Assembly: GCF_009184865.1 (NCBI RefSeq)
Contig: NZ_CP045096.1
Coordinates: 8,742,001-8,806,000 of the forward strand
DNA length: 64,000 bases
DNA from: Streptomyces phaeolivaceus
Lineage (GTDB): Bacteria > Actinomycetota > Actinomycetes > Streptomycetales > Streptomycetaceae
Direction: 5' to 3'
A program made the translations under genes and the position numbers. The notes beneath the pieces were generated by a model. The model ran no database searches and was not told where the DNA came from. It worked only from the letters and a program-made list of their open reading frames with translations. Below are positions 25,401-42,070 of the stretch, in pieces; the stretch's first letter is position 1; each line of letters starts with the position of its first letter.

Positions 25401-26358
25401 GCAGGCGGTGTACAGCCCCGACGGGTCACTGCTGGCCACGGCCGACACCGACCACACCGTGCGGCTCTGGGACGCCCGCGCGCACCGGCTCCTCGAACGG
25501 CTCGTCGGCCACACCGAGACCGTCTTCTCGGTGGCCTTCGCGCCCGACGGGAAGACCCTCGCCTCGGCGGGTTCCGACGGCACGATCCGCCTCTGGGACG
25601 TGGCCGCGCGCAAGCCACTGGACACGCTCACCGGCCACACCGGGGAGGTCTTCTCGGTGGCCTTCGCGCCCGACGGGAAGACCCTCGCCTCGGCCGGCGC
25701 CGACCGCACGGTCCGCCTCTGGGACCTCGCCTCACGGCACGGCGTCGCCACCTTCGAGGGCCACGAGGACTACGCCAACGCCGTCGCGTTCAGCCCCGAC
25801 GGCCGCACCCTGGCGAGCGCCGGCGACGACCTGACCGTACGGCTCTGGGACGTCCGCTCGCACCGGGCCCTCGCCGCACTGACCGGCCACACCGGCGCGG
25901 TACGGGGAGTCACCTTCTCACCGGACGGCCGCACCCTCGCCAGCAGCGGCAACGACGGCACCGTCCGCCTGTGGGACGTCCGCGGGCGCCGCTTCGAGAC
26001 CGCCCTCACCGGCCACACCGGCTCCGCGCGCGGCATCGCCTACTCCCCGGACGGCCGGATGCTCGCCAGCAGCGGCAACGACCGTACGGTCCGCCTCTGG
26101 GACGTCACCGCCCGGCGCCCGTGGGCGACCCTGACCGGTCACACCAACGCCGTGTGGGGCGTGGACTTCGCCCCCGACGGCCGGACGGTCGCCAGCAGCA
26201 GCACCGACGGCACGGTACGGCTGTGGGACCTCGACCCCGGCGCCAGACTGGCGGAGATCTGCCGGCTGAGCGCCGGGATAGGCCCCGACGAGCGGGACGT
26301 CCTGCTCCCGGGGGTCCCCGTGTCGTCGGACGCGGAACAGGCCTGCGCCCGTAGCTGA
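22414..26358 (+). CDS. HTH-nSTAND NTPase with transmembrane helix and 14 WD40 repeats
   Basis: 1314 aa from the GTG at 22414 (GGGAG upstream); the frame is open further left through a hairpin, so that part is excluded. Domains: XRE-type HTH (about 13-68); nSTAND P-loop ATPase with F-F-G-R-D, Walker A P-S-G-A-G-K-S-S (~143-151) and Walker B L-I-V-D-Q-F-E-E-L (~263). A winged-helix-like region follows, then one hydrophobic segment at ~610-632 ([17 protein letters not shown]), then 14 WD40 repeats (~700-1290), enough for two seven-bladed propellers. STAND proteins are signal-switched ATPases; ligand and output are unknown. Blades 9 and 10 share 47 identical bases. Confidence 0.87.
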   Translation: MPTTRSLPAQQSFPAQLRRLRRERGLSLTDLARQTHYSKGYLSKIETGTKRATVDVARLCDQVLRADGELLRLVRQAPAGEGDGDRLPENDSVPRQPGGTCPYRGLSAFTPQDAEWFFGRDRATAALVERIFERIGGGPLMLVAPSGAGKSSLLNAGLVPALRRGDLPMPGADRWPVVLLTPTSRPLDELLERTAKALGGDLGLTPEEVRENPAALLDAVQVATAPAAAPPPPAARAMSGDGPPTVPPPAAPGDREPPPPRPVLIVDQFEELFTLCSDDEERRAFVRVLRALSTAGTEPDTRPPAVVVLGVRADFTGSCLGLPELTPVLTDGLFVLAPMSVTELRESITRPAALAGVTLEPGLLPLLLRDAGLRDEPGSTSPDTARTSGIGAHETPSGALPLVSHALLATWQRRTDSALLTVDGYERAGGIQGAIARTAETVFAGLYQAEQRTIRRILSRLVLVADGAGATRRRMSRTALMEQLGDADGTAAALDAFVRARLITLDSDTVQITHEALLHAWPRLRDWIHADLAGLLLHQQLAHAAAEWGREDHDPSALYRGTRLDTVRSWADESDGWSRLGPGEEAFLRASQAEEDSRRRQAGRQVRLRQSLLATLVVLLGLAVTAGGLAYQQREGALEQERAARSQALAVRSASLAGGQPEASMLLAGEAYRADTTAEARGALLSTQSQPFSARLDGYRGPVNAVAFAPDDRTLATASSDGTVTLRATGGDHRTLATFSVPGRVRSVAFSPDGLTLAATSTDGPVTLWDIADRRRTALLSADTQGARAVAFDPRGGALAVATPDGTVQLWNTGRTPRRTASLTGHDGTLHALAYAPDGRTLVSAGADRTVRLWDTDRARRITVLKGHTDEVLGVAFSPDGRQVVSGGVDRTVRLWDVRERRTAATFTGSSDDINAVAYTPDGATVIGAVGDGTTRLWDVRGGRQTAVLAGHTDYVMGVAVTSDGALLATAGFDQSVVLWELGGPVLTARPFTEVWQAVYSPDGSLLATADTDHTVRLWDARAHRLLERLVGHTETVFSVAFAPDGKTLASAGSDGTIRLWDVAARKPLDTLTGHTGEVFSVAFAPDGKTLASAGADRTVRLWDLASRHGVATFEGHEDYANAVAFSPDGRTLASAGDDLTVRLWDVRSHRALAALTGHTGAVRGVTFSPDGRTLASSGNDGTVRLWDVRGRRFETALTGHTGSARGIAYSPDGRMLASSGNDRTVRLWDVTARRPWATLTGHTNAVWGVDFAPDGRTVASSSTDGTVRLWDLDPGARLAEICRLSAGIGPDERDVLLPGVPVSSDAEQACARS

Positions 26359-28536: not shown

Positions 28537-28589
28537 GACGAGTGTCCCTTTCGGAAGTGCGGATGTCTCGGGTGGGAGGGGACGGAGGG

Positions 28590-28645
28590 AGGTCTACGGA
28601 AGGAGGTCTACGGAAGGAGGTCTACGGAAGGAGGTCTACGGAAGG
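28590..28645. repeat. Four 14-bp tandem repeats between SDR and iolG
   Basis: The unit AGGTCTACGGAAGG is repeated perfectly four times (28590-28603, 28604-28617, 28618-28631, 28632-28645), ending three bases before the SDR stop codon. Both flanking genes run leftwards, so the array is in their shared spacer. Confidence 0.92.
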
Positions 28646-28648
28646 AGG

Positions 28649-29410
28649 TCAGTCGGTGGTGCCCAGGACGTTCTGGTCCCAGTCGAGCACCGAACCGGTC
28701 ACCACGCCGCTGCGGTCGGACAGCAGGAAGACCACGAAGTCGGCGATCTCGTCGACCTGGCCGAGCTTGCCCATCGGCAGGGTCTCGGCGGCCCGTTCGC
28801 GCCAGTCGTCGCCCGCGCCGTGGAACTCGCGCTGGACGGCGTCCTCGCCCTCGGTCTCCGTCCAGCCGATGTTGAGGTCGTTGATCCGGACGCGGTCCCA
28901 GCGGTGGGCGTGGGCGGCGTTGCGGGTGAGGCCCGCGAGACCGGCCTTCGCGGCGGAGTAGGGGGCCAGATACGGCTGGCCGCCGTGCCCGCTGGTCGAA
29001 CCGATGTTGACGATCGTGCCCGGCGCCTCGCGGGCGATCAGATGCGCGACCACGGCCTGCATCGCGAAGAAGGGCGCGCGCAGGTTGATCGCGATGTGCG
29101 CGTCGAAGAGTGCGGGCGAGGTGTCGAGGAGCGAGCCCCGGGAGGTCAGGCCGGCGGCGTTGACGAGGCTGTCGACCCGGCCGTGGGCCGCGATCACCTC
29201 TTCCACCGCGCCGCGCACCCGTGCCGGGTCCGCCAGGTCGGCCCGTACGAAGGTCGCGCCCGTCTCGGCCGCGAGATTCTCGCCGACCTCGGCACGGCGC
29301 CCGGTGAACGCGACGGTCGCGCCCTCGCGCAGGGCCGCCCGGACGATGCCCGCGCCGACGCCCTGACTGCCGCCGTTGACGAGGACGACCCTGTCCTCCA
29401 GTAGTGCCAT
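28649..29410 (-). CDS. SDR family oxidoreductase
   Basis: 253 aa from the ATG at 29410; the frame continues antisense through the LacI gene, which is a shadow. Classical SDR motifs: V-V-L-V-N-G-G-S-Q-G-V-G (NAD(P) binding, ~8-19), N-A-A-G (~86) and the catalytic tetrad with I-G-S-T-S, Y-S-A-A-K and an Asn. The C-terminus G-S-V-L-D-W-D-Q matches sugar/polyol dehydrogenases. Likely cotranscribed with iolG and repressed by the divergent LacI protein. Substrate not determinable. Confidence 0.83.
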   Translation of the reverse strand: MALLEDRVVLVNGGSQGVGAGIVRAALREGATVAFTGRRAEVGENLAAETGATFVRADLADPARVRGAVEEVIAAHGRVDSLVNAAGLTSRGSLLDTSPALFDAHIAINLRAPFFAMQAVVAHLIAREAPGTIVNIGSTSGHGGQPYLAPYSAAKAGLAGLTRNAAHAHRWDRVRINDLNIGWTETEGEDAVQREFHGAGDDWRERAAETLPMGKLGQVDEIADFVVFLLSDRSGVVTGSVLDWDQNVLGTTD

Positions 29411-30978: not shown

Positions 30979-31794
30979 TCAGCTGGTGACGAGCTCGGGC
31001 GCCCGGCGGTCGATGGAGGACTCCACCGACACGGTCACGGTCACCGCCTCGGACGCGACCGCGGTGGCCGCCCCGCCCCGGCCCTCCCGGTTGCGGAACA
31101 GCCAGGCGATGTCCCGGCCGAACGACCAGAGCAGCGAGCCCAGCGCCAGCGCGACCAGGCCGAAGCCGACGGCGTACGGCAGCAGACCGGAGGCCGCGAC
31201 CAGCAGGAACACACCCTGGACCGCGGCGACCGTCTTGCGGGCCATGCTGTGCGGGAGGGAGTTGTTCAGCCACGGGGCGACCTTCGCGGCGGCCACGAAG
31301 ACGTACCGCATGAGGCCGATCAGCATGACCCACGGGCCCATCGACAAGGACACGTACACGCTCAGCACCAGGATCAGGAACGCGTCGACCTCCATGTCGA
31401 AGCGGGCGCCCAGCGCGGTCGAGGTGTTCGTGCGGCGGGCCACCTTGCCGTCGACGCCGTCGAGGATCAGCGCCACGGCCGTCAGACCGACGAACAGCGA
31501 GACGGGAGGCGAGCTCTGGAAGGAGTCGGCGACCAGGGCGGTGACGGCGCCGACGAGTATCGCCCGGCCGAGCGTGACGCGGTTGGCGGGGCCGAAGGTA
31601 CGGGTCCGGGTGCGCAGCAGGGCGCGGTTGAGGACGGCCCAGGTGGCGAGCCCGAAGGCGAGCCCGGTCAGCCAGCCCGCGGGTCCCAGTCCGATCGCCG
31701 TGCCCAGGAAGGCGAGGAGCAGGACCTGGGCACCCGCGCCCACGGTCGTCTCCGAGAGCAACAGCCGGCCGTCGTATGTGTTGATCAGGGCCAC
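30979..31794 (-). CDS. CDP-alcohol phosphatidyltransferase family membrane protein
   Basis: 271 aa from the GTG at 31794, which has GGAAGG six bases upstream. Longer frames reach into the divergent dehydrogenase and lack an RBS. The diagnostic CDP-OH-P motif is present: D-G-V-D-G-K-V-A-R-R followed by G-A-R-F-D-M-E-V-D, all four Asp included. There are about five to six hydrophobic helices. The family joins a CDP-activated lipid or polyol to an alcohol phosphate. Divergent from the BchC-like dehydrogenase across 112 bases, it borders the GTP-cyclohydrolase/PTPS-like block. I infer it supplies a phospholipid-type or inositol/glycerol head-group step. It could equally be general phospholipid metabolism. 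Confidence 0.82.
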   Translation of the reverse strand: MALINTYDGRLLLSETTVGAGAQVLLLAFLGTAIGLGPAGWLTGLAFGLATWAVLNRALLRTRTRTFGPANRVTLGRAILVGAVTALVADSFQSSPPVSLFVGLTAVALILDGVDGKVARRTNTSTALGARFDMEVDAFLILVLSVYVSLSMGPWVMLIGLMRYVFVAAAKVAPWLNNSLPHSMARKTVAAVQGVFLLVAASGLLPYAVGFGLVALALGSLLWSFGRDIAWLFRNREGRGGAATAVASEAVTVTVSVESSIDRRAPELVTS

Positions 31795-31906
31795 CGCGAA
31801 CCTTCCGAACGTGTGTGTGACAGAAACGATCATCGCCGCGTACCGTGAAGCGCGACTCCCACCGCTGCGTACGTGGAGAATCGCCGGACCGTTCACGGAG
31901 ACGCAC

Positions 31907-32887
31907 ATGAAACCGACAGCCAACGCCTTCTGGCTACGCTCCCCCGGGCGGGGCGAGATCCGCGAGGAGACCCTCGCCGCGCCCGCCGACGGCGAGGTCC
32001 TGGTCCGCGCGCTGTACTCAGGAGTCAGCCGGGGCACCGAGACACTCGTGTTCCGCGGCCGAGTGCCCGAGAACCAGTACGCGACCATGCGCGCGCCCTT
32101 CCAGGAGGGCGAGTTCCCCGCTCCCGTGAAGTACGGCTATCTCAGCGTGGGGCTGGTGGAAGAGGGGCCGGACGCACTGGTCGGCAGGACCGTCTTCTGC
32201 CTGTATCCGCACCAGAGCCGCTACGTCGTTCCCGTGAGCGCCGTCACCGTCGTGCCCGACTCCGTCCCCGCCGCGCGGGCGGTCCTGGCCGGGACCGTGG
32301 AGACCGCCGTCAACGCCCTGTGGGACGCGGCCCCCCTCGTCGGGGACCGGATCGCCGTCGTCGGCGGCGGCATGGTCGGCTGCTCGGTCGCCGCGCTCCT
32401 CGCCCGCTACCCCGGCGTACGCGTCCAGCTCGTCGACGCGGACCCGGCGCGCGCCGACATCGCCCGCGCACTCGGTGTCGACTTCGCGCTACCGGGGGAC
32501 GCCCTCGGCGAGTGCGACCTCGTCGTGCACGCCAGCGCGAACGAACAGGGCCTCGTGCGCTCCCTGGAACTCCTCGCCTCCGAGGGCACGGTCGTCGAAC
32601 TCAGCTGGTACGGCGACCGCCGGATCGCCCTGCCGCTCGGCGAGGCCTTCCACTCGCGCCGGCTCACCATCCGCAGCAGCCAGGTCGGAACCGTCTCCCC
32701 GGCCGGACGCGTCGGACGTACGTACGCGGACCGGTTGGCACTCGCCCTCGAACTCCTCGCCGACGCCCGCTTCGACGCGCTGGTCACCGGAGAGTGCGCC
32801 TTCGAGGAACTCCCGGACGTCCTGCCGAAGCTGGCGAGCGGCGAGCTGCCGGGGATGTGCCACCGGGTGCGCTACGACGCCGAGTGA
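31907..32887 (+). CDS. Zinc-binding-type alcohol dehydrogenase (MDR), BchC-like
   Basis: 326 aa from the ATG at 31907 with GGAG upstream. MDR fold: N-terminal GroES-like domain with S-G-V-S-R-G-T-E-T-L-V-F (in place of the usual catalytic Cys/His motif) and a Rossmann domain with V-V-G-G-G-M-V-G (~150). The S-R-G-T-E motif and overall length resemble the BchC/threonine-dehydrogenase-like subgroup. The canonical C-G zinc ligand and G-H-E motif are not seen, so a classic zinc-alcohol mechanism is doubtful. First gene of the rightward run leading to the PTPS-like, glycosyltransferase, methyltransferase and membrane-protein genes. Confidence 0.8.
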   Translation: MKPTANAFWLRSPGRGEIREETLAAPADGEVLVRALYSGVSRGTETLVFRGRVPENQYATMRAPFQEGEFPAPVKYGYLSVGLVEEGPDALVGRTVFCLYPHQSRYVVPVSAVTVVPDSVPAARAVLAGTVETAVNALWDAAPLVGDRIAVVGGGMVGCSVAALLARYPGVRVQLVDADPARADIARALGVDFALPGDALGECDLVVHASANEQGLVRSLELLASEGTVVELSWYGDRRIALPLGEAFHSRRLTIRSSQVGTVSPAGRVGRTYADRLALALELLADARFDALVTGECAFEELPDVLPKLASGELPGMCHRVRYDAE

Positions 32888-33056
32888 GCCCAGAGGTTGA
32901 GCGTTCCGGGTCGCCCCACCCGCCCCTGAACTGCCCGAACGGAACGCTGACCTCCAAAGAAACCGCAAAACTCGGCTGAACAACGGGTAGGGAGCAGCCG
33001 TACTACACGGCATGCCCCGGCCCGGGGGCAGACGCACCGCACTGGAGGGTCGTCCG

Positions 33057-33455
33057 TTGTTCAGCATCACCGTCCGCGATCACATCATGATCGCCCACAG
33101 CTTCCGCGGGGAGGTCTTCGGACCCGCGCAGCGCCTCCACGGCGCCACCTTCCTCGTGGACGCCACCTTCCGGCGCGCCGAACTGGACGACGACAACATC
33201 GTCGTAGACATCGGGCTGGCCACCCAGGAGCTGGGTGCCGTGGTGAGCGAGTTGAACTATCGCAACCTCGACAACGAGCCCGCCTTCGCCCACACGAACA
33301 CCTCCACGGAGTTCCTGGCCAAGGTGATCGCCGACCGTCTCGCCGAGCGGATCCACAAGGGCGGCCTCGGGGAGAACGCCAAGGGCATCGCGAACCTCAC
33401 GGTCACCCTGCACGAGTCGCACATCGCCTGGGCGAGTTACGAGCGTGCCCTGTGA
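33057..33455 (+). CDS. 6-pyruvoyltetrahydropterin synthase/QueD-like protein with substituted catalytic residues
   Basis: 132 aa from a TTG at 33057, which has GGAGGG exactly seven bases upstream; an ATG at 33012 lacks an RBS. Length and pattern match the T-fold PTPS/QueD family: first zinc His in I-A-H-S-F (H14), second in L-H-G (H28), T-S-T-E-F-L-A (for P-T-A-E-N-L-A) and the substrate-binding Glu in L-H-E-S. The catalytic Cys four residues before H28 is Ala24. The third zinc His (HGH) is Ala30. The L-D-H catalytic His is Tyr68. The protein may therefore bind a pterin-like compound or do different chemistry. The stop overlaps the next GTG frame (GTGA). Confidence 0.8.
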
Positions 33456-33502
33456 CCGACGTGACCATCGACCGGGCGACCGTGGGCACCACCACCGCTC
33501 CG

Positions 33503-33556
33503 GCGAACGGGGGAGAGCAAGTGCGGCTCGCGAACGGGGGAGAGCAAGTGAGGCTC
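33503..33556 (+). repeat. 27-bp tandem duplication carrying an RBS and GTG start
   Basis: Copies 33503-33529 and 33530-33556 differ at one base. Each holds GGGGGAG, a five-base spacer and GTG (33521 and 33548) in the glycosyltransferase frame, so the gene has two equivalent translation start modules. Confidence 0.85.
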
Positions 33557-34705
33557 GGCTATGTGCCCGTGCAGAACGCGGCGCTGAAGAACGCGGCGAT
33601 CGTTCCCATGTCGCTGCGTTCGATGCACTTCGTGATGCCCGGTGGCGTGGACGACCTGGCCCGGCCCAGCGGCGGCAACGCCTACGACCGCCGGATCTGC
33701 CTGGACCTGCCCGGCTTCGGCTGGCAGGTGCACAAGCACGCGATCGGCGGCAGCTGGCCGCGCCCGGACGAGACGGCACGCGCCGAACTCGCCCGTACGC
33801 TGCGTGAACTCCCCGACGGCACGGTCGTCCTGCTCGACGGTCTGGTCGCCTGCGGGGTCCCCGAGATCATCCTTCCCGAGGCCGAACGCCTCTGCCTGGC
33901 GGTGCTGGTGCATCTGCCGCTCGGCGACGAGACGGGCCTGGAGCCCGAACTCGCCGCCGAACTCGACGCCAAGGAGCGGACCACCCTGCGGGGCGTGTCC
34001 GCGGTGATCGCGACCAGTGACTGGGCGGTCCGCAGACTCGTGTCACACCACGGGCTCGCCCCCGAGCGGGTCCATGTCGCCGCCCCCGGCGCCGACATCG
34101 CGCCCCTCGCCTCCGGCACCGACGGGGTCTCCCGGCTGCTGTGCGTGGCCGCGGTCACCCCGCGCAAGGGGCAGCACCGGCTGGTGGAGGCACTCGCGAC
34201 CGTCACCGAACTGCGCTGGAGCTGCGTGCTGGTGGGCGGCCTCGACCAGGACCCCGAGTACGTCGACCACATCCGCACGCTGATCGCGAAGTTCGGCCTG
34301 GAGGACCGTTTGCACCTGGCCGGACCGCAGGCGGGCGCGCGGCTCGACGCCAGCTACGCCTCCGCCGACCTCATGGTCCTCACCTCCTACGCCGAGACGT
34401 ACGGCATGGCGGTCACCGAGGCCCTCGCGCGCGGTATCCCGGTCCTGGCCACGGATGTCGGCGGTCTCCCCGAGGCCGTCGGGCGCGCCCCCGACGGCGG
34501 CGTCCCCGGCATCCTCGTCCCGCCGGAGAACCCCGCGGCCATCGCGGCGGAGCTGCGCGGCTGGTTCGGGGAGGCCGACGTACGGCGTCGGCTGAAGGCG
34601 GCGGCGCGCGGGCGCCGGGCCGCGCTGGACGGGTGGGCGACCACGGCCCGCAGCCTCGCCCATGTACTGGGCCGGCTGCGGCACGAACCTCGGAGGGCCG
34701 CATGA
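33548..34705 (+). CDS. Glycosyltransferase family 4
   Basis: 385 aa from the GTG at 33548; in-frame GTGs at 33521 (same RBS, duplicated) and 33452 (overlaps the PTPS-like stop, weak RBS) are alternatives. I prefer 33548 because the conserved-looking N-terminus M-R-L-G-Y-V-P-V starts there. GT-B fold: acceptor domain, then V-A-A-V-T-P-R-K-G-Q-H-R-L at the donor-domain start and V-L-V-G-G-L. The E-x7-E region is S-Y-A-E-T-Y-G-M-A-V-T-E-A-L-A-R-G, with V-G-G-L-P-E. Predicted retaining transferase using an NDP-sugar; the acceptor is unknown, plausibly the GTP-derived product of this locus. The stop overlaps the methyltransferase start (ATGA). Confidence 0.85.
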   Translation: MRLGYVPVQNAALKNAAIVPMSLRSMHFVMPGGVDDLARPSGGNAYDRRICLDLPGFGWQVHKHAIGGSWPRPDETARAELARTLRELPDGTVVLLDGLVACGVPEIILPEAERLCLAVLVHLPLGDETGLEPELAAELDAKERTTLRGVSAVIATSDWAVRRLVSHHGLAPERVHVAAPGADIAPLASGTDGVSRLLCVAAVTPRKGQHRLVEALATVTELRWSCVLVGGLDQDPEYVDHIRTLIAKFGLEDRLHLAGPQAGARLDASYASADLMVLTSYAETYGMAVTEALARGIPVLATDVGGLPEAVGRAPDGGVPGILVPPENPAAIAAELRGWFGEADVRRRLKAAARGRRAALDGWATTARSLAHVLGRLRHEPRRAA

Positions 34706-35685
34706 CCACTTCAGCCGATATGACCACGTCCGCGGCGGCCGGGCCGGGCGGTGCCGCGGGTGCCGCCGCCGGTGGGGCCGAGGCCGCCGCCGGGTCCGCC
34801 TCCGCCGGGGCGCTGAGCATGGCGGGGCGCGGTGGTGACACACCGGCGCCCGAGGGGCACCAGTACGCGCCGCAGTGGCTGGAGTTGCGCGAGAGCGCCG
34901 ACGCGGACGCCCGCGCGGCGGAGCTGCTGGACCCGCTGCGCATCCGCCTCGCGAACCTGCCCGGCCGGGCCACCGGGCTGGTCGTCCACGACCTGGGCTG
35001 CGGCACCGGCTCGATGGGCCGCTGGCTCGCGCCCCGGCTGGACGGCGCCCAGCGGTGGATCCTGCACGACCAGGACCCGAACCTGCTGCGGCTGGCCGTC
35101 GCACGGGCGCCGCGCGCGGCGGCCGACGGCAGCCCCGTCACGGTCACCACGCGGCGCGGCGACATCGGCCGGCTGACGGCGGACGACCTCGCCGGGGCCT
35201 CGCTGGTCACCGCGTCCGCGCTGCTCGACGTCCTCACCCGTGAGGAGATCGAGGCGCTCGCGGCGGCCTGCGCGGGCGCCGGGGTCCCCGCCCTGCTGAC
35301 ACTCTCGGTCGTGGGACGCGTGGACCTGGTCCCCGCCCACCCCATGGACGCCGAGATCGCCGAGGCGTTCAACGCCCACCAGCGCGCGAGCGAACTGCTC
35401 GGCCCGGACGCGATCACCACGGCCTGCGAGGCGTTCGCCCAGCAGGGCGCGACCGTCCGGGTCCACCCGAGCCCCTGGCAGCTCGACACCCGGCACACCG
35501 CCCTCACCGAGGAGTGGCTGCGCGGCTGGGTCGGCGCCGCGTGCGAACAGCGCCCCGAACTCGCCGAGCGCGCCGACGCCTACCTCCGCGACCGGCTGGC
35601 CGCCAACACGGCCGGTGAACTCCGCGCCGTCGTCCACCACAGCGACGTACTGGCCCTGCCCCGGCCGACGGGCGGAGTGTCATGA
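34702..35685 (+). CDS. Class I SAM-dependent methyltransferase
   Basis: 327 aa; GGAGGG precedes the ATG, which overlaps the glycosyltransferase stop by four bases. An Ala/Gly-rich low-complexity N-terminus of about 45 residues is followed by the SAM domain: motif I V-H-D-L-G-C-G-T-G-S-M-G (~100), H-D-Q-D-P as motif II and a downstream A-S-A-L-L-D-V-L. The methyl acceptor is unknown. Tight coupling to the glycosyltransferase and flippase-like genes makes a role in tailoring the same metabolite likely (inference). The stop overlaps the next ATG by four bases. Confidence 0.84.
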   Translation: MTTSADMTTSAAAGPGGAAGAAAGGAEAAAGSASAGALSMAGRGGDTPAPEGHQYAPQWLELRESADADARAAELLDPLRIRLANLPGRATGLVVHDLGCGTGSMGRWLAPRLDGAQRWILHDQDPNLLRLAVARAPRAAADGSPVTVTTRRGDIGRLTADDLAGASLVTASALLDVLTREEIEALAAACAGAGVPALLTLSVVGRVDLVPAHPMDAEIAEAFNAHQRASELLGPDAITTACEAFAQQGATVRVHPSPWQLDTRHTALTEEWLRGWVGAACEQRPELAERADAYLRDRLAANTAGELRAVVHHSDVLALPRPTGGVS

Positions 35686-37154
35686 CGGCGCCGGTGGAGG
35701 AGACGGTCGAGACCCACCCGCCGACACCGGGCGACCGCATACGCGTACGCCCGCGCGGCGTACGCGCCCGAGTGATGGCGGGTACGCCGGGAGCGCGGGC
35801 GAGAGTACGCGCCCTCACCCCCACCGGCACCCCCCGTGGACTCCCGCCCGTCCCGGCGGTACCGGGCACGCGCGCGCCGGACGGCCGTACGGCCGTGGCG
35901 GAGCCGGTGGACGCGGCGTACGACCAGGTCGGCGGCCGGAGCCGGGACGGGGCCGCCGCGGCGCCCTCCCAGGCAGCCCCGACCGGTGCCCCCGCCGAGC
36001 CCCCGACCGAGTCCCGCACGACACCGGACACCGGGTCCCGCCTCTCCTCCCGGTTCACCCGCGCCCTGCGCGCCCACTTCGGCACGCTTGCCGGAACGGT
36101 CATCCTCGCCGTCGTGTTCTGGCGGATGGGGACCGGCGTGTTCGTGGACGGGCTGCGGCGGATCGACGGCGGGACGCTCGCGGCGGCGGTCGGGATCGGC
36201 GTGCTGACCACGGTGTTCAGCGCGTGGCGCTGGTGCGCGGTGACCCGGGCCCTCGGGCTCCGGCTGCCGCTCGGCCCGGCCGTCGCGGACTACTACCGCG
36301 CGCTCTTCCTCAACGCGGCCCTGCCCGGCGGAGTCCTCGGCGATGTGCACCGGGCGGTGCGCCACGGACAGAGCTCCGGCGACATGGGCCGGGGCGTGCG
36401 CGCGGTGGTGATCGAGCGCACCGCGGGCCAGTTGGTGCTGGCCGTCGTGGGCGTAACGGTCCTGCTGGTGCTGCCGTCCCCGGTGCTGGAGCAGACCCGG
36501 CACGTCGCCGGCATCACGACGCTCGCCGCGCTGGGCGCCCTGGCGATCTGGGCGGCGGTCCGTATGGGCCGCAGGCCGAGCACCGCCGGGGGCAGGGGCC
36601 GCCGGGTCCGCGCCGCCCTCGTCGAGGCGCGCGGTGTACTGCTGAACCGCGACAGCGGCCCCGCCGTACTGGTCTCGTCGGTGGCGGTCCTGGCCGGATA
36701 CGTGGTGACGTTCCTGTTCGCCGCCCGCGTCGCCGGATCCACCGCGGGCGCGGCGCGACTGCTGCCCCTCGCGCTGCTGGCCCTGATCGCCATGAGCCTG
36801 CCGCTCAACGTCGGCGGCTGGGGCCCCCGCGAGGGCGTCACCGCCTGGTCGTTCGGCGCCGCGGGTCTGGGCGCATCCCAGGGGCTCACCGTCGCCGTCG
36901 TCTACGGTGTCCTCAGCTTCGCGGCGGCCCTGCCGGGAGCCCTCGTGCTCGTCGGACGCTGGTACGGCTCCCTGCGTGCCCGCCGTCAGTCGTCCACGGG
37001 GAAGACCGGCGCCGGAACCGTATCCGTGCCCCAGGCGTCCGAGGTGACCAACGAGAAGTACGCCCCGAAGGAATCCACGAACCCTGCCAGCAACTCCTTC
37101 CCCTTCGCGGCGGACGCCAGGGACGGACGGCCGATGACACCGGAATCGGTGTAG
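35682..37154 (+). CDS. Lysylphosphatidylglycerol synthase/flippase-like transmembrane protein (UPF0104)
   Basis: 490 aa. Residues 1-125 are Arg/Pro/Thr-rich and disordered. From ~130 to ~430 there are about eight TM helices in the pattern of the LPG_synthase_TM family, including F-L-N-A-A-L-P-G-G-V-L-G-D and I-E-R-T-A-G-Q. The conserved P-L-N-V-G-G-W-G-P-R-E-G motif follows. The aminoacyl-transferase domain of MprF is absent, so this is only the membrane (flippase-like) part. The last ~56 residues are read antisense to the 3' end of the creatininase-like gene, which suggests a lost stop. Predicted to move or handle a lipid-linked product of the block. Confidence 0.8.
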   Translation: MTAPVEETVETHPPTPGDRIRVRPRGVRARVMAGTPGARARVRALTPTGTPRGLPPVPAVPGTRAPDGRTAVAEPVDAAYDQVGGRSRDGAAAAPSQAAPTGAPAEPPTESRTTPDTGSRLSSRFTRALRAHFGTLAGTVILAVVFWRMGTGVFVDGLRRIDGGTLAAAVGIGVLTTVFSAWRWCAVTRALGLRLPLGPAVADYYRALFLNAALPGGVLGDVHRAVRHGQSSGDMGRGVRAVVIERTAGQLVLAVVGVTVLLVLPSPVLEQTRHVAGITTLAALGALAIWAAVRMGRRPSTAGGRGRRVRAALVEARGVLLNRDSGPAVLVSSVAVLAGYVVTFLFAARVAGSTAGAARLLPLALLALIAMSLPLNVGGWGPREGVTAWSFGAAGLGASQGLTVAVVYGVLSFAAALPGALVLVGRWYGSLRARRQSSTGKTGAGTVSVPQASEVTNEKYAPKESTNPASNSFPFAADARDGRPMTPESV

Positions 37155-37777
37155 GCCGACATACCGAGGGAGAGGAGATGACGGCGGTCGTCGGCAAGGA
37201 AATCGGTGGTCTCGTGACCGGGCCGGACCAATTCGGGATGGCAATGCAGAAGTATGGAGGTCTCTATTTCTCCCGCATGCATATCACTGAGCAACGAGGT
37301 CTGTACGCCCGCCCGTTGACGCGCGGCGTCCCAGTCCTCCATCGCCGGGAAAAGCGCCATTCGATGTCCCGCCGCGGTGGATTCCTGGACGACATTGCCC
37401 AGAACGTAATTACCGCCGTGTCCGTTCACCACCACCAGCGCCTCGACGCCCGACCGGCGCAGGGACGCGGCGATATCGCTCACCACCGCGTGCAGCGTCG
37501 TCGCGGAAATGCTGACGGTGCCCGGCCAGGCCGCGTGCTCGTGCGAGCAGGCGATGGTCACGGGCGGCAGGAGGCGCACCGGGTACGCGGCGGCGATCTC
37601 GCCGGCGATCGCGCAGGCGACGAGCGTGTCGGTGGCCAGCGGCAGATATGGGCCGTGCTGCTCGTAGCTCCCGACCGGGAGCACCGCGACCTGTCGGCCG
37701 GCCTCCGCTCCCCGCGCCCGGACGTCCGCGGTGGTGTCCGTCGGTACAAGGGTCCGTACAGAACTCGAACTGCTCAT
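36986..37777 (-). CDS. Creatininase-family amidohydrolase (possible FAPy formamide hydrolase)
   Basis: 263 aa from the ATG at 37777. The family metal site is complete: P-V-G-S-Y-E-Q-H-G-P-Y-L-P-L-A-T-D (Glu, His, Asp), S-H-E-H, V-N-G-H-G-G-N and D-M-H-A-G-E-I-E-T-S. The creatininase fold includes ArfB-type formamide hydrolases that deformylate FAPy nucleotides. Here the gene is divergent by 78 bases from a GTP cyclohydrolase II paralogue predicted to stop at FAPy, so a FAPy deformylase role is the best hypothesis (inference). Its 3' end overlaps the flippase-like gene by 169 bases on the opposite strand. Confidence 0.85.
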   Translation of the reverse strand: MSSSSSVRTLVPTDTTADVRARGAEAGRQVAVLPVGSYEQHGPYLPLATDTLVACAIAGEIAAAYPVRLLPPVTIACSHEHAAWPGTVSISATTLHAVVSDIAASLRRSGVEALVVVNGHGGNYVLGNVVQESTAAGHRMALFPAMEDWDAARQRAGVQTSLLSDMHAGEIETSILLHCHPELVRPGHETTDFLADDRRHLLSLGMSAYTDSGVIGRPSLASAAKGKELLAGFVDSFGAYFSLVTSDAWGTDTVPAPVFPVDD

Positions 37778-37855
37778 CTTTTCCCGGCCTTTCGTCTCTG
37801 CTGATGCTCCGTCATTTTCGCATGACGTCAGGACTCACCAGATAGGAACCAGATC
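37778..37855. promoter_or_regulatory. Divergent promoter region between creatininase-like gene and ribA paralogue
   Basis: 78 bases, relatively AT-rich for the window (for example around 37801-37850). It must contain both promoters and favours co-regulation of the two enzymes. I see no clear palindrome. Confidence 0.5.
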
Positions 37856-38515
37856 ATGACAGAAAATGTTGGTGTACTCGGCACGAATGCCCAGTCCTCC
37901 GGCGCCGTACGCGTGGTGAACGCTCCTCTGCCCACGACCTACGGCGACTTCGAGGCCGTAGGTTATCTCGACCAGGACCGCGGCGAGGAACAAGTGGCGC
38001 TGGTGTACGGCGACATCAGCGGCGGTGCGGGAATTCTCATCCGGCTGCACTCGGAGTGCCTGACCGGTGACGCGTTCGGCTCCCAGCACTGCGAATGCGG
38101 TGAACAGCTCGACAGCGCGCTCCGGGCGATAGTCGCCGAGGGCCGCGGCATTCTCGTGTATCTCCGAGGCCACGAGGGACGCGGTATCGGTCTGCTCGCC
38201 AAGCTGCAGGCGATGAAACTCCAGGCGGAGGGCCTGGACACCGTCGAGGCCAATCTCGCCCTCGGTCTGCCGGTGGACGCCCGGGACTACCGGGTGGCCG
38301 CCGAGATGCTGCACGACCTCGGCGTCCGCTCGGTCCGGCTGATGTCGAACAACCCGCGCAAGCGGGAGGCGCTGCTGCGCCACGGCATCGACGTCGCCGA
38401 ACAGGTGCCGCTGCTGATCACGCCGTGCGAGGACAACATCACCTATCTGCGCACCAAGCGCGAGCGGCTCGACCACCTCCTGCCGCACCTGGACGCGGTG
38501 GTCCACTCGTCCTGA
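37856..38515 (+). CDS. ribA: GTP cyclohydrolase II paralogue with Tyr-to-Met active-site change
   Basis: 219 aa. Zinc ligands C68, C79 and C81 (S-E-C-L-T-G-D, H-C-E-C-G) are present, as are R-G-H-E-G-R-G-I-G-L and S-N-N-P-R-K. In canonical enzymes the next motif is K-(I/L)-x-A-Y-x-L-Q (Tyr105 of E. coli RibA). Here it is K-L-Q-A-M-K-L-Q with Met120. From the literature as I recall it, S. coelicolor SCO6655 carries this substitution and releases the formylated intermediate FAPy. There is no fused DHBP synthase domain and no riboflavin genes nearby, so it is not the housekeeping riboflavin enzyme. AGGAA lies upstream of the ATG. Confidence 0.88.
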   Translation: MTENVGVLGTNAQSSGAVRVVNAPLPTTYGDFEAVGYLDQDRGEEQVALVYGDISGGAGILIRLHSECLTGDAFGSQHCECGEQLDSALRAIVAEGRGILVYLRGHEGRGIGLLAKLQAMKLQAEGLDTVEANLALGLPVDARDYRVAAEMLHDLGVRSVRLMSNNPRKREALLRHGIDVAEQVPLLITPCEDNITYLRTKRERLDHLLPHLDAVVHSS

Positions 38516-38725: not shown

Positions 38726-39871
38726 GTGATCCGCAGCGCACGGGTCGTCGTCATCGGCGGAGGAGTCATCGGGACGAGCATCGCCTACCACCTGGCCGCC
38801 GCCGGAGTGGACGACGTCGTCCTCGTCGAACGCGACGAACTGGCCTCCGGATCCACCGCGAAAGCCGCCGGCGGGATCCGCGCGCAGTTCTCCGACGAAC
38901 TCAACATCCAGCTCGGCGCCCGCAGCCTGGAGGCGTTCGACCGCTTCAAGCAGGAGCTGGGCCACGACATCGGACTCCACCGGGTCGGCTATCTCTTCCT
39001 CCTGACGACCCCCGACGAGGTCGCCCAGTTCGAGGCCGGCGTCCAGCTCCAGAACGACCTGGGCGTGCCCAGCCGTATGGTCGACCCCGCCGAGGCCCGG
39101 CGGCTCTCCCCGCTGATCTCCACAGAGGGCCTGCTCGCCGCCGCCTTCTCGCCCGACGACGGGCACTGCACGCCGGAGTCCGTGGTCCACGGGTACGCCG
39201 CCGGGGCCCGCCGCCGCGGGGCGACCGTGCTGCGCGACTGCGAGGTCCTCGGCATCGAGACCTGGCGGGACACCATCACCGCCGTGGTCACCAGCAGGGG
39301 CCGTATCGTCACGGACACGGTCGTCTGCGCGGCCGGCGCCTGGTCCCGGTCCGTCGGCGCCATGGTCGGCGTCGACCTCCCGGTGGAACCCCTGCGCCGC
39401 CAGATCGCCGTCACGGAACCGGTCCCCGGCCTCCCGCCGAGCCTCCCCATGACGATCGACTTCACCAGCAGTCTCTACTTCCACACCGAGGGCCCCGGCC
39501 TCCTCGTCGGCATGTCCGACCCCGACGAACGGCCCGGCTTCGCCACCGACACCCACGACCGCTGGATCCCCCGCCTCTACGAGGCCATGGAGCGCCGCGC
39601 GCCCGGCCTGCTCGACCTGCGCCGCACGGGCGGCTGGGCGGGCCTGTACGAGATCACCCCGGACCACAACGCCCTGATCGGCGAGGCCGGTTCGTGCTCC
39701 CGCTTCCTGTACGCGACCGGGTTCTCCGGCCATGGGTTCCTCCAGGGCCCGGCGGTCGGCGAGGTGGTCCGCGACCTGTACCTGGGCCGCGTACCCTTCG
39801 TCGACATCAGCCCCTTGAACGTCGACCGGTTCACGGCCGACGCGTTGCGCCCGGAGGCCAACCTCGTATGA
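38726..39871 (+). CDS. FAD-dependent oxidoreductase (DAO/sarcosine oxidase-like)
   Basis: 381 aa from a GTG with GAAGGGAG upstream. FAD-binding motif V-V-V-I-G-G-G-V-I-G-T-S-I-A-Y-H (8-23), E-R near the second strand, S-T-A-K-A-A-G-G-I-R and C-A-A-G-A-W-S. The C-terminal G-L-Y-E-I-T-P-D and A-T-G-F-S-G-H-G-F-L-Q-G-P motifs define the DAO family. It oxidises the C-N bond of an amino acid or imino acid. First gene of an operon with two saccharopine-dehydrogenase-like genes (ATGA overlap with the next), so an amine near lysine, pipecolate or saccharopine is a likely substrate (inference). Confidence 0.84.
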   Translation: MIRSARVVVIGGGVIGTSIAYHLAAAGVDDVVLVERDELASGSTAKAAGGIRAQFSDELNIQLGARSLEAFDRFKQELGHDIGLHRVGYLFLLTTPDEVAQFEAGVQLQNDLGVPSRMVDPAEARRLSPLISTEGLLAAAFSPDDGHCTPESVVHGYAAGARRRGATVLRDCEVLGIETWRDTITAVVTSRGRIVTDTVVCAAGAWSRSVGAMVGVDLPVEPLRRQIAVTEPVPGLPPSLPMTIDFTSSLYFHTEGPGLLVGMSDPDERPGFATDTHDRWIPRLYEAMERRAPGLLDLRRTGGWAGLYEITPDHNALIGEAGSCSRFLYATGFSGHGFLQGPAVGEVVRDLYLGRVPFVDISPLNVDRFTADALRPEANLV

Positions 39872-40908
39872 CCGATCTCCACTTGTGGCTGCGCCACGAG
39901 ACCCGCACCACCGAACGCCGCACCCCGATCGTGCCGTCCGACGCCCGACGGCTCGTCGCGAGCGGCGTACGGATCACCGTCGAGGAATCCCCCCAGCGGA
40001 TCTTCCCCGTGGAGGCGTACGAGGAGGCCGGCTGCCAGGTCGCCGACCCCGGCTCATGGGTGTCGGCCTCGGCCCGAGCGGTGATCGTAGGCCTCAAGGA
40101 ACTCCCGGACGCGCCCGCCGAACTGACTCACCGTCACATCTTCTTCGGGCACGCCTACAAGGGGCAGCCCGGCGCTCAGGCCCTGCTGCGCAGGTTCGCC
40201 GCCGGGGGCGGGGCGCTGCTCGACCTGGAGTACCTGGTGGACGACCAGGGCCGCAGGCTCGCCGCCTTCGGCTTCTGGGCGGGCTATCTGGGCGCGGCCC
40301 TCGCCGTGCTCCACCACAGGGGCGCGCTGCGGGCCCCGCTCGTCCCCACCACCAAGGAGGAGATGGAGGCCGAACTCCGCGCCTCCGAGGGCGACTTGAC
40401 CGCGCTGGTGATCGGCGCCCTGGGCCGCAGCGGCCGGGGAGCGCGCACGGCGCTCGACGAGGCGGGCGTCGAACCGACCTGCTGGGACCTGCCGGAGACC
40501 CGCGATCTGGACCGGCCGGCCCTGCTGGCACACGACCTGATGGTCAACACCGTCCTGACCACCAGCCCCGTCCCGCCGTTCCTGACGGACAAGGACCTCG
40601 ACGGCCCGGACCGCCGTCTGAGGACCCTCTCCGATGTCACCGTCGACGTCGGCTCACCCATGAACGTCCTGCCCGTCTACGACACGACGACGGAATGGGA
40701 CCACCCCGTGCGGCGGCTGCGCGAACAGCCTCCGCTCGATCTCATCGCCATCGACAACCTGCCCTCCCTCCTGCCTCGCGAGGCGAGCACCGACTTCTCG
40801 GCCGCGCTGCTGCCGCAGCTGCTGGACTTCGAGACCAGCGGGGCCTGGGGCCGCTGCCTGGACCGGTTCCGTCGGGTGAGCGGCGAACTGGGCCTCACGG
40901 AAAGGTAG
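39868..40908 (+). CDS. Saccharopine dehydrogenase (NAD, lysine-forming type, LYS1-like)
   Basis: 346 aa; the ATG overlaps the oxidoreductase stop by four bases. The N-terminal half has the LYS1/alanine-dehydrogenase pattern: R-x-E-T-R...E-R-R-T-P, G-L-K-E-L-P and F-F-G-H-A-Y-K-G-Q-P-G. R-F-A-A-G-G-G-A-L-L-D-L-E-Y-L then D-x-x-G-R-R-L-A-A-F-G follow. The Rossmann part carries G-A-L-G-R-S-G-R-G. Fungal LYS1 interconverts saccharopine with lysine and 2-oxoglutarate; bacterial members also serve lysine degradation. Next to a second saccharopine-type enzyme, lysine catabolism by the saccharopine route is plausible. Confidence 0.85.
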   Translation: MTDLHLWLRHETRTTERRTPIVPSDARRLVASGVRITVEESPQRIFPVEAYEEAGCQVADPGSWVSASARAVIVGLKELPDAPAELTHRHIFFGHAYKGQPGAQALLRRFAAGGGALLDLEYLVDDQGRRLAAFGFWAGYLGAALAVLHHRGALRAPLVPTTKEEMEAELRASEGDLTALVIGALGRSGRGARTALDEAGVEPTCWDLPETRDLDRPALLAHDLMVNTVLTTSPVPPFLTDKDLDGPDRRLRTLSDVTVDVGSPMNVLPVYDTTTEWDHPVRRLREQPPLDLIAIDNLPSLLPREASTDFSAALLPQLLDFETSGAWGRCLDRFRRVSGELGLTER

Positions 40909-40915
40909 TTGCCCG

Positions 40916-42070
40916 ATGACAGAGGTGGTCCCCGCGAGCGGCACCGTCCACTGGATCGGCGCCGGCCTGTCCACGGGCAGCGGCCTGGCGGCACTGTGCG
41001 ACACCGCCGCCCGGGTACGGCTGTGGCACCGCACCGAGGAGCGCGCCGAACAGGCCCTGGCCGCGCTGGGGCTGGCGGGCCGCGCCGAGCCCCGCGCGTA
41101 CACGCCGTCGGCGCTGGCGGCCGAGCTGGCACCCGGAGACATCGTGGTCTCGATGCTCCCGGCGCCGGAGCACGGTCCGCTGCTCGCCGCCTGCGTCGGC
41201 GCGCGGGCCCACTTCGCCTGCTCCAGCTATGTCTCGGACGCCGTGCTGGAGCGGGTACCGGCGGCCGAGGCGGCGGGGATCACCGTCCTCACCGAGACGG
41301 GTCTCGACCCGGGCATCGACCACCTCTTCGCGCACAGCCTGATCGCGCGGGCGACGGAGGCGATCGGCCCGGGGACCGCCGCCTCGTACACCCTCACCTC
41401 GTACTGCGGCGGCGTCCCCGCCGTCCCCAACGACTTCCGGTACCGCTTCAGCTGGGCCCCCGTCGGTGTGCTCAACGCCCTGCGCTCGCCCGCCCGTTAC
41501 ATCGAGGACGGCGCGGAGACGACGGCCGACCGCCCCTGGACGGTCACCCGCCCCCATGTCATCGACGGCGAGACCTTCGAGGCCTACCCCAACCGTGACA
41601 GCGTCCCCTTCGTCACCCAGTACGGTCTGCCCCCGGCCTGGAAGCCGCTGACCTTCGTCCGCGGCACCCTCCGCCTCGACGGCTGGCTCACCGCGTGGGC
41701 CCCGGTCTTCGCGGAACTGGAGCAGGGCGACGACCGGCGCATCGCCTCCCTGGCACGGGAGTTGGCGACCCGCTACCCCACCACCGACGCCGACCGTGAC
41801 CGGGTCGTCCTCGCCGTCTCCCTCGACGTCCACACAGGTCCGGACGAGCACTGGTCCGGCCGCTACCTCCTCGACATGGTCGGCACGAAGGAGGAGAGCG
41901 CCATGGCCCGCCTGGTGTCCCGCCCCCTGGCCCTCGGGGTGGGACACATCCTGGACGGTTCACTGCCGGCGGGTCTGAGCAGGGGGGCGGAGACCGGGGA
42001 GCGGTCGGAGGTGTGGCTGCGCGAACTGGGGCGGGAGGGCTTGCAGTTCGGGTTGTGGGTCGAGGGGTGA
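40916..42070 (+). CDS. Saccharopine dehydrogenase family protein (glutamate-forming type)
   Basis: 384 aa, seven bases after the LYS1-like gene. N-terminal Rossmann fold (W-I-G-A-G-L-S-T-G-S, V-S-M-L-P-A at the strand-4 edge, C-S-S-Y-V-S), then T-E-T-G-L-D-P-G-I-D-H and S-Y-C-G-G-V-P-A-V. Those motifs are characteristic of LYS9-type saccharopine reductases. It would handle the aminoadipate-semialdehyde/glutamate half of the pathway. It ends at a bidirectional terminator. Spermidine- or homospermidine-related dehydrogenases of the same fold are an alternative. Confidence 0.83.
   Translation: MTEVVPASGTVHWIGAGLSTGSGLAALCDTAARVRLWHRTEERAEQALAALGLAGRAEPRAYTPSALAAELAPGDIVVSMLPAPEHGPLLAACVGARAHFACSSYVSDAVLERVPAAEAAGITVLTETGLDPGIDHLFAHSLIARATEAIGPGTAASYTLTSYCGGVPAVPNDFRYRFSWAPVGVLNALRSPARYIEDGAETTADRPWTVTRPHVIDGETFEAYPNRDSVPFVTQYGLPPAWKPLTFVRGTLRLDGWLTAWAPVFAELEQGDDRRIASLARELATRYPTTDADRDRVVLAVSLDVHTGPDEHWSGRYLLDMVGTKEESAMARLVSRPLALGVGHILDGSLPAGLSRGAETGERSEVWLRELGREGLQFGLWVEG

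Follow-up and report, generated by a model that had tools for sequence, protein, structure and literature searches.

A widespread, misnamed bacterial gene cluster and a proposed route from ring-opened GTP to a lipid-linked glycoside

A 64,000-nucleotide window of the Streptomyces phaeolivaceus genome (contig NZ_CP045096.1, positions 8,742,001 to 8,806,000) contains, at window positions 30979-38515, eight genes that constitute the form which a widespread pathway takes in one lineage. They encode a GTP cyclohydrolase II (GCHII; the window's protein is called RIBA here), a creatininase-family amidohydrolase (CREA), a dehydrogenase of the MDR family, a protein resembling 6-pyruvoyltetrahydropterin synthase (PTPS), a retaining glycosyltransferase (GT4), a methyltransferase (MT), a flippase-like membrane protein (FLIP) and a CDP-alcohol phosphatidyltransferase (CDPOH). 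The pathway is genuine and conserved, has been partly described for one species, and is misnamed in databases; its genes are found in roughly every second same-genus species sampled and in at least four phyla, annotated as ‘tetrahydropterin synthase’, ‘creatininase’ or ‘riboflavin’ enzyme. We propose that it leads from GTP by way of formamidopyrimidine (FAPy) to a diaminopyrimidine, then to a modified glycoside and finally to a phospholipid head group, and the evidence leans, although not far, towards this model as a whole.

Conservation within Streptomyces and in other phyla

Open reading frames (ORFs) and Pfam matches place the eight genes in one compact unit, as a first-pass annotation made from the sequence had described, and the families it gave to the tailoring, membrane and lipid genes are likewise confirmed. 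PTPS, GT4, MT and FLIP are joined through three 4-base start/stop overlaps, two junctions are divergent (31827/31907 between CDPOH and MDR, and 37777/37856 between CREA and RIBA), and the convergent 3′-ends of FLIP and CREA overlap by 169 bases (36986-37154). The unit recurs in 20 Streptomyces loci that we hand-picked from 151 matches, each stretch extending just a few kb past the cluster: six of the eight genes are present in 20/20, and CREA and RIBA in 19/20, with the remaining locus (L177) cut by its contig. Each of six flanking genes tested is found in at most 7 of these loci. The PTPS-like gene, used as a marker, is present in 151 of the 295 same-genus genomes sampled; across the class (E ≤ 1e-20) it marks 57 of 394 genomes, which represent 25 of 137 genera.

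The cluster extends beyond Actinobacteria, the range first suggested for it, to at least four phyla. Scanning genome contigs with an MDR alignment that included the window's MDR protein yielded at least 582 confirmed relatives among at least 595 candidate stretches, and the 80 distant loci that we kept span Rubrobacteraceae and other Actinomycetota, Thermomicrobiales, Gemmatimonadota, and alpha-, beta- and gamma-Proteobacteria. Genes were counted in these loci as tblastn matches (E ≤ 1e-5) anywhere in the fetched stretch, a measure that under-counts weakly conserved genes, and the counts include 15 loci shorter than 15 kb. PTPS-like genes occur in 76/80, GT4 in 68/80, MT in 66/80, and a reductase domain, RibD_C, in 65/80. 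Further genes are less frequent: CDPOH (34/80), GCHII (27/80), an FkbM methyltransferase (27/80), an LtaS-like gene (19/80), FLIP (19/80), the periplasmic glucan synthase MdoH (18/80), CREA (12/80) and FolB (7/80). The GCHII count compares with a chance expectation of about 0.6% per 20-kb stretch (3 per 10.2 Mb). The expectation that the genes should co-occur in other genomes is thus borne out, as the set MDR-PTPS-like-GT4-MT recurs in Rubrobacter, Thermomicrobiales, Gemmatimonadota and Proteobacteria. Among 14 comparison stretches not selected for MDR, none had an MDR match; six, chosen for their LtaS-like gene, had no other match, three combined PTPS with RibA and RibD_C, three had PTPS alone, and the last two had nothing.

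Ten Rubrobacter-like loci are especially simple. All ten contain FolB, RibD_C, MDR, PTPS and GT4, nine contain MT, and none has a match to GCHII, CREA, CDPOH, FLIP or the LtaS-like gene; one further Rubrobacter locus, L061, has GCHII. Because of these counts and those in the other distant loci, the genes divide into a core module (RibD_C, MDR, PTPS, GT4 and MT), a supply module (GCHII and CREA), and a lipid/export module (CDPOH, FLIP and the LtaS-like gene). Four gammaproteobacterial loci (L076, L077, L078 and L090) have MDR with no PTPS nearby, and in three CDPOH and the LtaS-like gene accompany it; the remaining pathway may lie elsewhere in these genomes or have been lost.

Half of the 20 Streptomyces loci (10) have RibD_C, placed between FLIP and CREA. 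Nine of the loci without it form, together with the window, one clade of ten in the RIBA tree (support 98/90), and the tenth is the truncated L177. A search with the RibD_C of L178 (E ≤ 1e-15) found no match in five genomes of the window's clade, including the window's own, or in G023, which is outside the tree; the controls, the query's source genome and one other, did match. We conclude from these searches that the window's lineage has lost RibD_C. An earlier impression that Streptomyces clusters lack RibD_C altogether was wrong, because distant queries had under-counted it; the absence is confined to the window's clade.

Table 1. Genes of the cluster, in window coordinates
Gene	Position	Strand	Remarks
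CDPOH, CDP-alcohol phosphatidyltransferase (PF01066)	31827-30979	-	Pfam 57 bits vs 22; start codon uncertain
MDR dehydrogenase, BchC/polyol-dehydrogenase-like	31907-32887	+	No recognisable zinc ligands
PTPS-like T-fold protein	33012-33455	+	Start perhaps ~15 codons further in
GT4 retaining glycosyltransferase, MshA-like	33452-34705	+	Pfam 103.6 bits
MT, S-adenosylmethionine-dependent methyltransferase	34702-35685	+	Pfam Methyltransf_25
FLIP, LPG_synthase_TM/UPF0104 membrane protein, flippase-like	35682-37154	+	Pfam 102.4 bits
CREA, creatininase-family amidohydrolase, predicted FAPy formamidase	37777-36986	-	Pfam 217.5 bits
RIBA, GCHII, predicted to stop at FAPy	37856-38515	+	Met at E. coli Tyr105

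The cyclohydrolase, the creatininase and the PTPS-like protein

For the cyclohydrolase and CREATININASE analysis, the GCHIIs of cluster loci were aligned to E. coli RibA and placed in a 74-row tree. The window's RIBA retains the equivalents of C54, C65 and C67, and of D126 and R128, which we take to be the zinc-binding Cys residues and the catalytic Asp and Arg of a GCHII. At the position of E. coli Tyr105, the residue of canonical enzymes that form 2,5-diamino-6-ribosylamino-4-pyrimidinone 5′-phosphate (DARoPP), it has the Met to which the first-pass annotation had drawn attention. Judged from this residue and from the cluster context, RIBA is likely a FAPy-type GCHII.

The residue at this position varies together with the presence of CREA. 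In Actinobacteria, 32 cluster GCHIIs lack the Tyr (Met 21, Leu 6, His 4, Gln 1), and every one of their loci has CREA, which in one of them (G932) lies ~5 kb past the first-fetched stretch and ~10 kb from FLIP; CREA is found in 0/14 fetched stretches of Actinobacterial Tyr-type cluster loci, and of six Tyr genomes searched whole, three carry a weaker creatininase relative (37-43% identity) elsewhere. The non-Tyr sequences form a single clade (support 99/86), and drift among Met, Leu, His and Gln within it is what would be expected once deformylation is handed over. The simplest reading of this pattern, taken together with the Tyr-type companions of CREA outside Actinobacteria, is that CREA came first, freeing the Tyr to be lost in Actinobacteria. 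Thus, the proposed pairing of Met with a creatininase stands for one Actinobacterial clade, in a form widened to four residues, and fails as a universal rule, as the combination of Tyr and creatininase exists in Proteobacteria and Gemmatimonadota. The table of residues and CREA left out L103, which has a split RibA, and kept L086 of the Proteobacteria/Gemmatimonadota set (Leu, no CREA, on a very long branch); L061, L062 and L111 (Tyr, no creatininase; two are Actinomycetota) were tallied separately as ‘other’, and E. coli RibA and the genome's two other GCHIIs (L001 and L003) are in the tree but outside its counts. Cluster GCHIIs derive from at least four separate places in this tree, in which the rooting and some forks are unsure; the activity, rather than one gene, therefore seems to have been recruited.

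In CREA, residues E39, H41, D50, H120 and E172, presumably the creatininase metal ligands, are invariant in nine cluster proteins, which places it in the creatininase superfamily, and its structure model (mean pLDDT, a predicted local confidence score, of just 69) matches the creatininases 1Q3K, 3LUB and 3NO4. Gene fusions connect it to the reductase. We surveyed open frames in the 80 distant loci and three others; these frames are open throughout, and their translation as single proteins is putative. CREA and RibD_C are fused in L065 and L105, both from Gemmatimonadota, GCHII and RibD_C once, in L111 (an Actinomycetota metagenome-assembled genome), and Pfam confirms both domains in each; GT4 and MT are fused in five frames, with both domains confirmed in the two tested (L041 and L106). 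By analogy, the CREA-RibD_C fusion would unite two consecutive steps of an archaeal-type route. The association with non-Tyr GCHIIs and this fusion give indirect support to CREA as a putative FAPy formamidase, a reasonable assignment already suggested at first pass, and a proven bacterial precedent exists in BrbF (SMc02977), a creatininase-annotated FAPy formamidase of S. meliloti and B. abortus (PMC9478397).

The PTPS-like protein of the window is 88% identical (115/131 residues) to PDB entry 3D7J, ‘Uncharacterized protein SCO6650’. In PTPS enzymes we take the important positions to be a catalytic Cys, an Asp/His pair, three zinc-binding His residues and a Glu that anchors the ring. Among 144 cluster proteins, Ala takes the place of the Cys in 137, the catalytic His has become Tyr in 123 and Phe in 9, and the third zinc-binding His has become Ala in 117 (it is still His in 19, including the Rubrobacter types), so the description of this protein as an altered PTPS was correct; six comparison PTPSs (L048-L053) retain all catalytic and zinc positions. 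Glu135 is kept in 138 of the 144, as in a pterin-binding T-fold, and the residues of a 6-pyruvoyltetrahydropterin or 6-carboxytetrahydropterin synthase are not. The replacements are fixed across phyla (GPAQ..HGAT, YRNLD) and point to a new function rather than decay. Many close relatives are named 6-carboxytetrahydropterin synthase in databases, a name that the replaced active site, as read from the alignment, contradicts. In three of the comparison stretches (L048, L049 and L050, from one distant actinobacterial genus), a PTPS with canonical residues and RibA are ~5 kb apart, and the stretch also contains RibD_C; this arrangement is unrelated to the MDR cluster.

The proposed pathway and its alternatives

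In our model, the Met-type cyclohydrolase likely opens GTP and stops at FAPy, from which CREA would strip formate to give DARoPP, as archaeal ArfB and bacterial BrbF do. The gene content of relatives suggests that RibD_C would then produce an undeaminated ribitylamino-pyrimidine; in the window's clade, housekeeping RibD may stand in for it, or the step may be skipped. This order of GTP, FAPy, DARoPP and ribitylamino-pyrimidine is probable, given the families, the fusions and the association between Tyr loss and CREA. MDR may next oxidise a side-chain hydroxyl, possibly at C2′, and the PTPS-like protein may bind the guanine-like ring and help to close or reshape it, resulting in a pterin-like compound or a pyrimidine polyol. 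Chemically, if RibD_C reduced C1′ and C2′ were then oxidised, the 5-amino group could close a pterin ring, and a neopterin-like intermediate would fit the FolB of the Rubrobacter-like loci. Families and fusions suggest that GT4 attaches a sugar and MT a methyl group; GT4 scores 89.1 bits with the MshA model, under the model's cut-off, and its closest solved structure (3c4q) is MshA, while a PDB search with the methyltransferase returned nothing useful. Finally, CDPOH would link the product to diacylglycerol phosphate and the UPF0104 protein would flip it, after which, in relatives, an LtaS-fold transferase would pass the phospho-headgroup to an outside glycan.

Several features of the lipid genes fit this ending. 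CDPOH of the window carries DGxDGxxAR(8)GxxxDxxxD, which we take to be the CDP-alcohol phosphatidyltransferase motif, and it is predicted to join the product to lipid. It adjoins MDR or lies close to it, as a rule in divergent orientation, in Streptomyces, Gemmatimonadota, Halomonas and several alpha-proteobacteria, and in 5 of the 20 Streptomyces loci an LtaS-like gene is near it. A structure model of the relatives' LtaS-like protein (mean pLDDT 85) has LtaP/LtaS as top Foldseek matches (E 1.7e-9, TM-score 0.51 by target length) and a helical N-terminal half, consistent with the membrane-helical N-terminus of the LtaS fold; a sequence search of the PDB with this protein gave no useful match. 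MdoH lies in the stretch of 18 of the 80 distant loci, for example L065, L067 and L106, in some with an MdoG-like gene, a hint that periplasmic glucans may be the acceptor. A tentative extension, which we would sooner expect to fail than to hold, is a new phospholipid class with a head group from ring-opened GTP: GCHII (with the formamidase) and RibD_C would give a ribityl-diaminopyrimidine, MDR and the repurposed PTPS a pterin-like polyol independent of GTP cyclohydrolase I, GT4 and MT its decorations, CDPOH a phosphatidyl conjugate, and the LtaS-like enzyme its transfer to glycans of the envelope, which in Proteobacteria and Gemmatimonadota may be periplasmic glucans.

A number of findings count against the model. 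Just 34 of the 80 distant loci have CDPOH; neither RibD_C nor an LtaS-like gene was found in the window's cluster; and where CDPOH and the LtaS-like domain share one open frame (once, in L100), only CDPOH passes Pfam. Within the model the lipid step looks optional, because the ten Rubrobacter-like loci have the core without the lipid module. The source genome has two LtaS-like homologues, both away from the cluster. One of them (C2:8.37 Mb) is near a RibD_C-domain gene and was considered as a partner site, and was rejected as its neighbourhood matches no core query. The CDPOH and Rubrobacter counts would suit a soluble pyrimidine or pterin glycoside, made by GCHII, the creatininase, MDR, the PTPS-like protein, GT4 and MT and then exported, with CDPOH and the flippase-like protein serving an unrelated lipid. 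We regard this as unlikely, though worth keeping in mind, as CDPOH adjoins or neighbours MDR across several groups and shares a frame with the LtaS-like domain in one.

The creatininase step meets its own difficulties. The closest NCBIfam model to CREA is MftE (136 of 172 bits, below the cut-off), and against the ArfB model NF033501 it reaches 39.3 bits with a cut-off of 180. As the non-Tyr sequences form one clade, the loss of Tyr in Actinobacteria appears to be one event followed by drift among Met, Leu, His and Gln, rather than many independent events. In Proteobacteria and Gemmatimonadota, CREA accompanies Tyr in 4/21 Tyr loci, plus the fragmentary L103, and in ten creatininase-bearing genomes searched whole, of eleven selected, Tyr is present in all 16 readable GCHII matches of 20 (three of the four set aside are weak and unaligned at this position, and one has an unread frame); outside Actinobacteria the creatininase would therefore be redundant or otherwise employed, and another role for CREA there is possible. 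In addition, PMC9478397 reports that complementation in S. meliloti was not achieved with BrbF homologues of more distant kinship. CREA might then cleave a later amide, with the FAPy formyl group staying in the product of the window's lineage, a reading to which the MftE match and the Tyr-type companions outside Actinobacteria both lend something. We consider it improbable: the association with Tyr loss is complete in the Actinobacterial loci examined, CREA is fused to RibD_C, a reductase that, if ArfC-like, needs a substrate already deformylated, and BrbF provides a precedent (PMC9478397). We retain the assignment of CREA as the predicted FAPy deformylase.

That assignment alters one part of the first-pass proposal, in which FAPy chemistry by the two enzymes was to divert GTP from riboflavin. 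A conserved GTP-derived pathway is upheld, yet the two enzymes do not explain the diversion, because deformylated FAPy is the normal riboflavin precursor DARoPP; gene content suggests that diversion comes instead from RibD_C with MDR, the PTPS-like protein and GT4 in relatives. The same chemistry would allow the cluster to back up riboflavin synthesis or to serve riboflavin secretion, as proposed for the BrbF module of S. meliloti; BrbF is itself a riboflavin enzyme (PMC9478397). This is very unlikely. The source genome (10.18 Mb, 2 contigs) has three GCHII and eight RibD_C matches; one GCHII, in a 660-aa frame, adjoins the genome's only RibH match (C2:1.40 Mb, 7.4 Mb from the cluster), a second adjoins a RibD_C match at 4.76 Mb, and the cluster copy is the third. 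No RibH lies beside the cluster GCHII (RibB and RibE were not searched for), so we discarded ‘riboflavin locus’ as a name, and MDR, the PTPS-like protein, GT4, MT and CDPOH are not known to have a riboflavin role. A queuosine or 7-deazapurine-type pathway with the PTPS-like protein as QueD, despite the database names and a weak QueD match (35.3 of 89.25 bits), is hardly credible, since the QueD active site is absent (with the Cys, His and zinc-ligand replacements counted above), the cluster cyclohydrolase is a GCHII and not a GTP cyclohydrolase I, and the genome's only match to the latter is outside the cluster.

Known systems and neighbouring sequence

We take the locus to be the counterpart of S. 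coelicolor SCO6650-SCO6655, in which SCO6655 is presumably a Met-type GCHII paralogue with similar neighbours. In work of 2006, Spoonamore, Bandarian and colleagues reportedly showed that the reaction of SCO6655 ends with FAPy and that Met-to-Tyr at the decisive position makes a difference; in 2008 they are said to have solved SCO6650, finding neither zinc nor a catalytic triad in it and no activity as a PTPS. To our knowledge, that region has been studied solely as single enzymes in one species. The description of the locus as uncharacterised therefore applies to its function and not to the whole, which is partly described. Our comparison with the region rests on the 88% identity of the PTPS-like protein to SCO6650, whereas RIBA is likened to SCO6655 by the Met reported for the latter and by the kind of neighbours; the present analysis adds how widely the cluster is distributed, its partnership with RibD_C and LtaS-like genes, the fusions, and the association between Tyr and the creatininase. 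In the open-access literature searched, we found no paper on this gene combination, although one review of PTPS paralogues came up. PMC3509567 mentions, citing the 2006 work, changed GCHII activities of three Streptomyces isogenes, and SCO6655 has a table entry in PMC2853524.

Solving one member of the cluster would help to name thousands of proteins (8000/8000 scored candidates are relatives, E ≤ 1e-15), would settle the role of SCO6650, whose structure dates from 2008, and would show the FAPy route serving a second purpose in bacteria, perhaps with a new envelope molecule. The covariation of a GCHII residue with a separate deformylase would exemplify an enzyme that has ceded half of its reaction to another protein.

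ArfA, ArfB and ArfC form the archaeal early route to riboflavin and F420, which begins with GCH III (GTP cyclohydrolase III). The proposed order in the cluster is the same, with opening to FAPy, deformylation, and reduction before deamination, but the cluster uses the GCHII fold and goes on to glycosyl and lipid steps. The first two archaeal steps are described in PMC9478397. BrbF, as presented there, resembles CREA in its creatininase annotation and in its proposed reaction between GTP opening and RibD-type reduction; in contrast, BrbF works in riboflavin synthesis and has MarR/CobW genes as neighbours, whereas CREA lies with GCHII, MDR, the PTPS-like gene and GT4. CREA is nearer to the MftE than to the ArfB model, and its likeness to BrbF is drawn from annotation and proposed reaction. 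Clusters of Rhizobiaceae/Rhizobiales (L066, L073, L095 and L126) contain a long GCHII, which is of PRK08815 type in L126, the one tested. PMC9478397 describes the FAPy-making enzyme of S. meliloti as unknown, and a long-GCHII paralogue is a candidate for it, if S. meliloti has one. The lipid end recalls head-group transfer of the LtaS/OpgB/EptA type, as relatives likewise pair a CDP-alcohol transferase with an extracytoplasmic LtaS-fold enzyme; it differs in that the head group would derive from GTP and that the window contains no LtaS-like gene.

Downstream of RIBA, window positions 38726-42070 hold a gene resembling FAD amine oxidases and then two resembling saccharopine dehydrogenases (by eye), found in 4, 7 and 2 of the 20 Streptomyces loci. 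These genes were considered as cluster members and rejected at such frequencies; they are accessory neighbours. Upstream alignments show that both divergent intergenic regions hold blocks conserved in many Streptomyces (GTGACAGA..CGCCGCGTACC and CGGCCTTTCGTCTC), which are perhaps promoters or an operator; the blocks are promoter-like, and the alignments revealed no shared operator that could be named. Elsewhere in the window, degenerate 126-base repeats at 25506-26244 look by eye like the coding sequence of a WD40-type propeller, and a tandem array at 28582-28650 (4.9 copies of the 14-base unit ACGGAAGGAGGTCT), which is the source of repetitive ORFs, lies directly upstream of an inositol-dehydrogenase-like gene.

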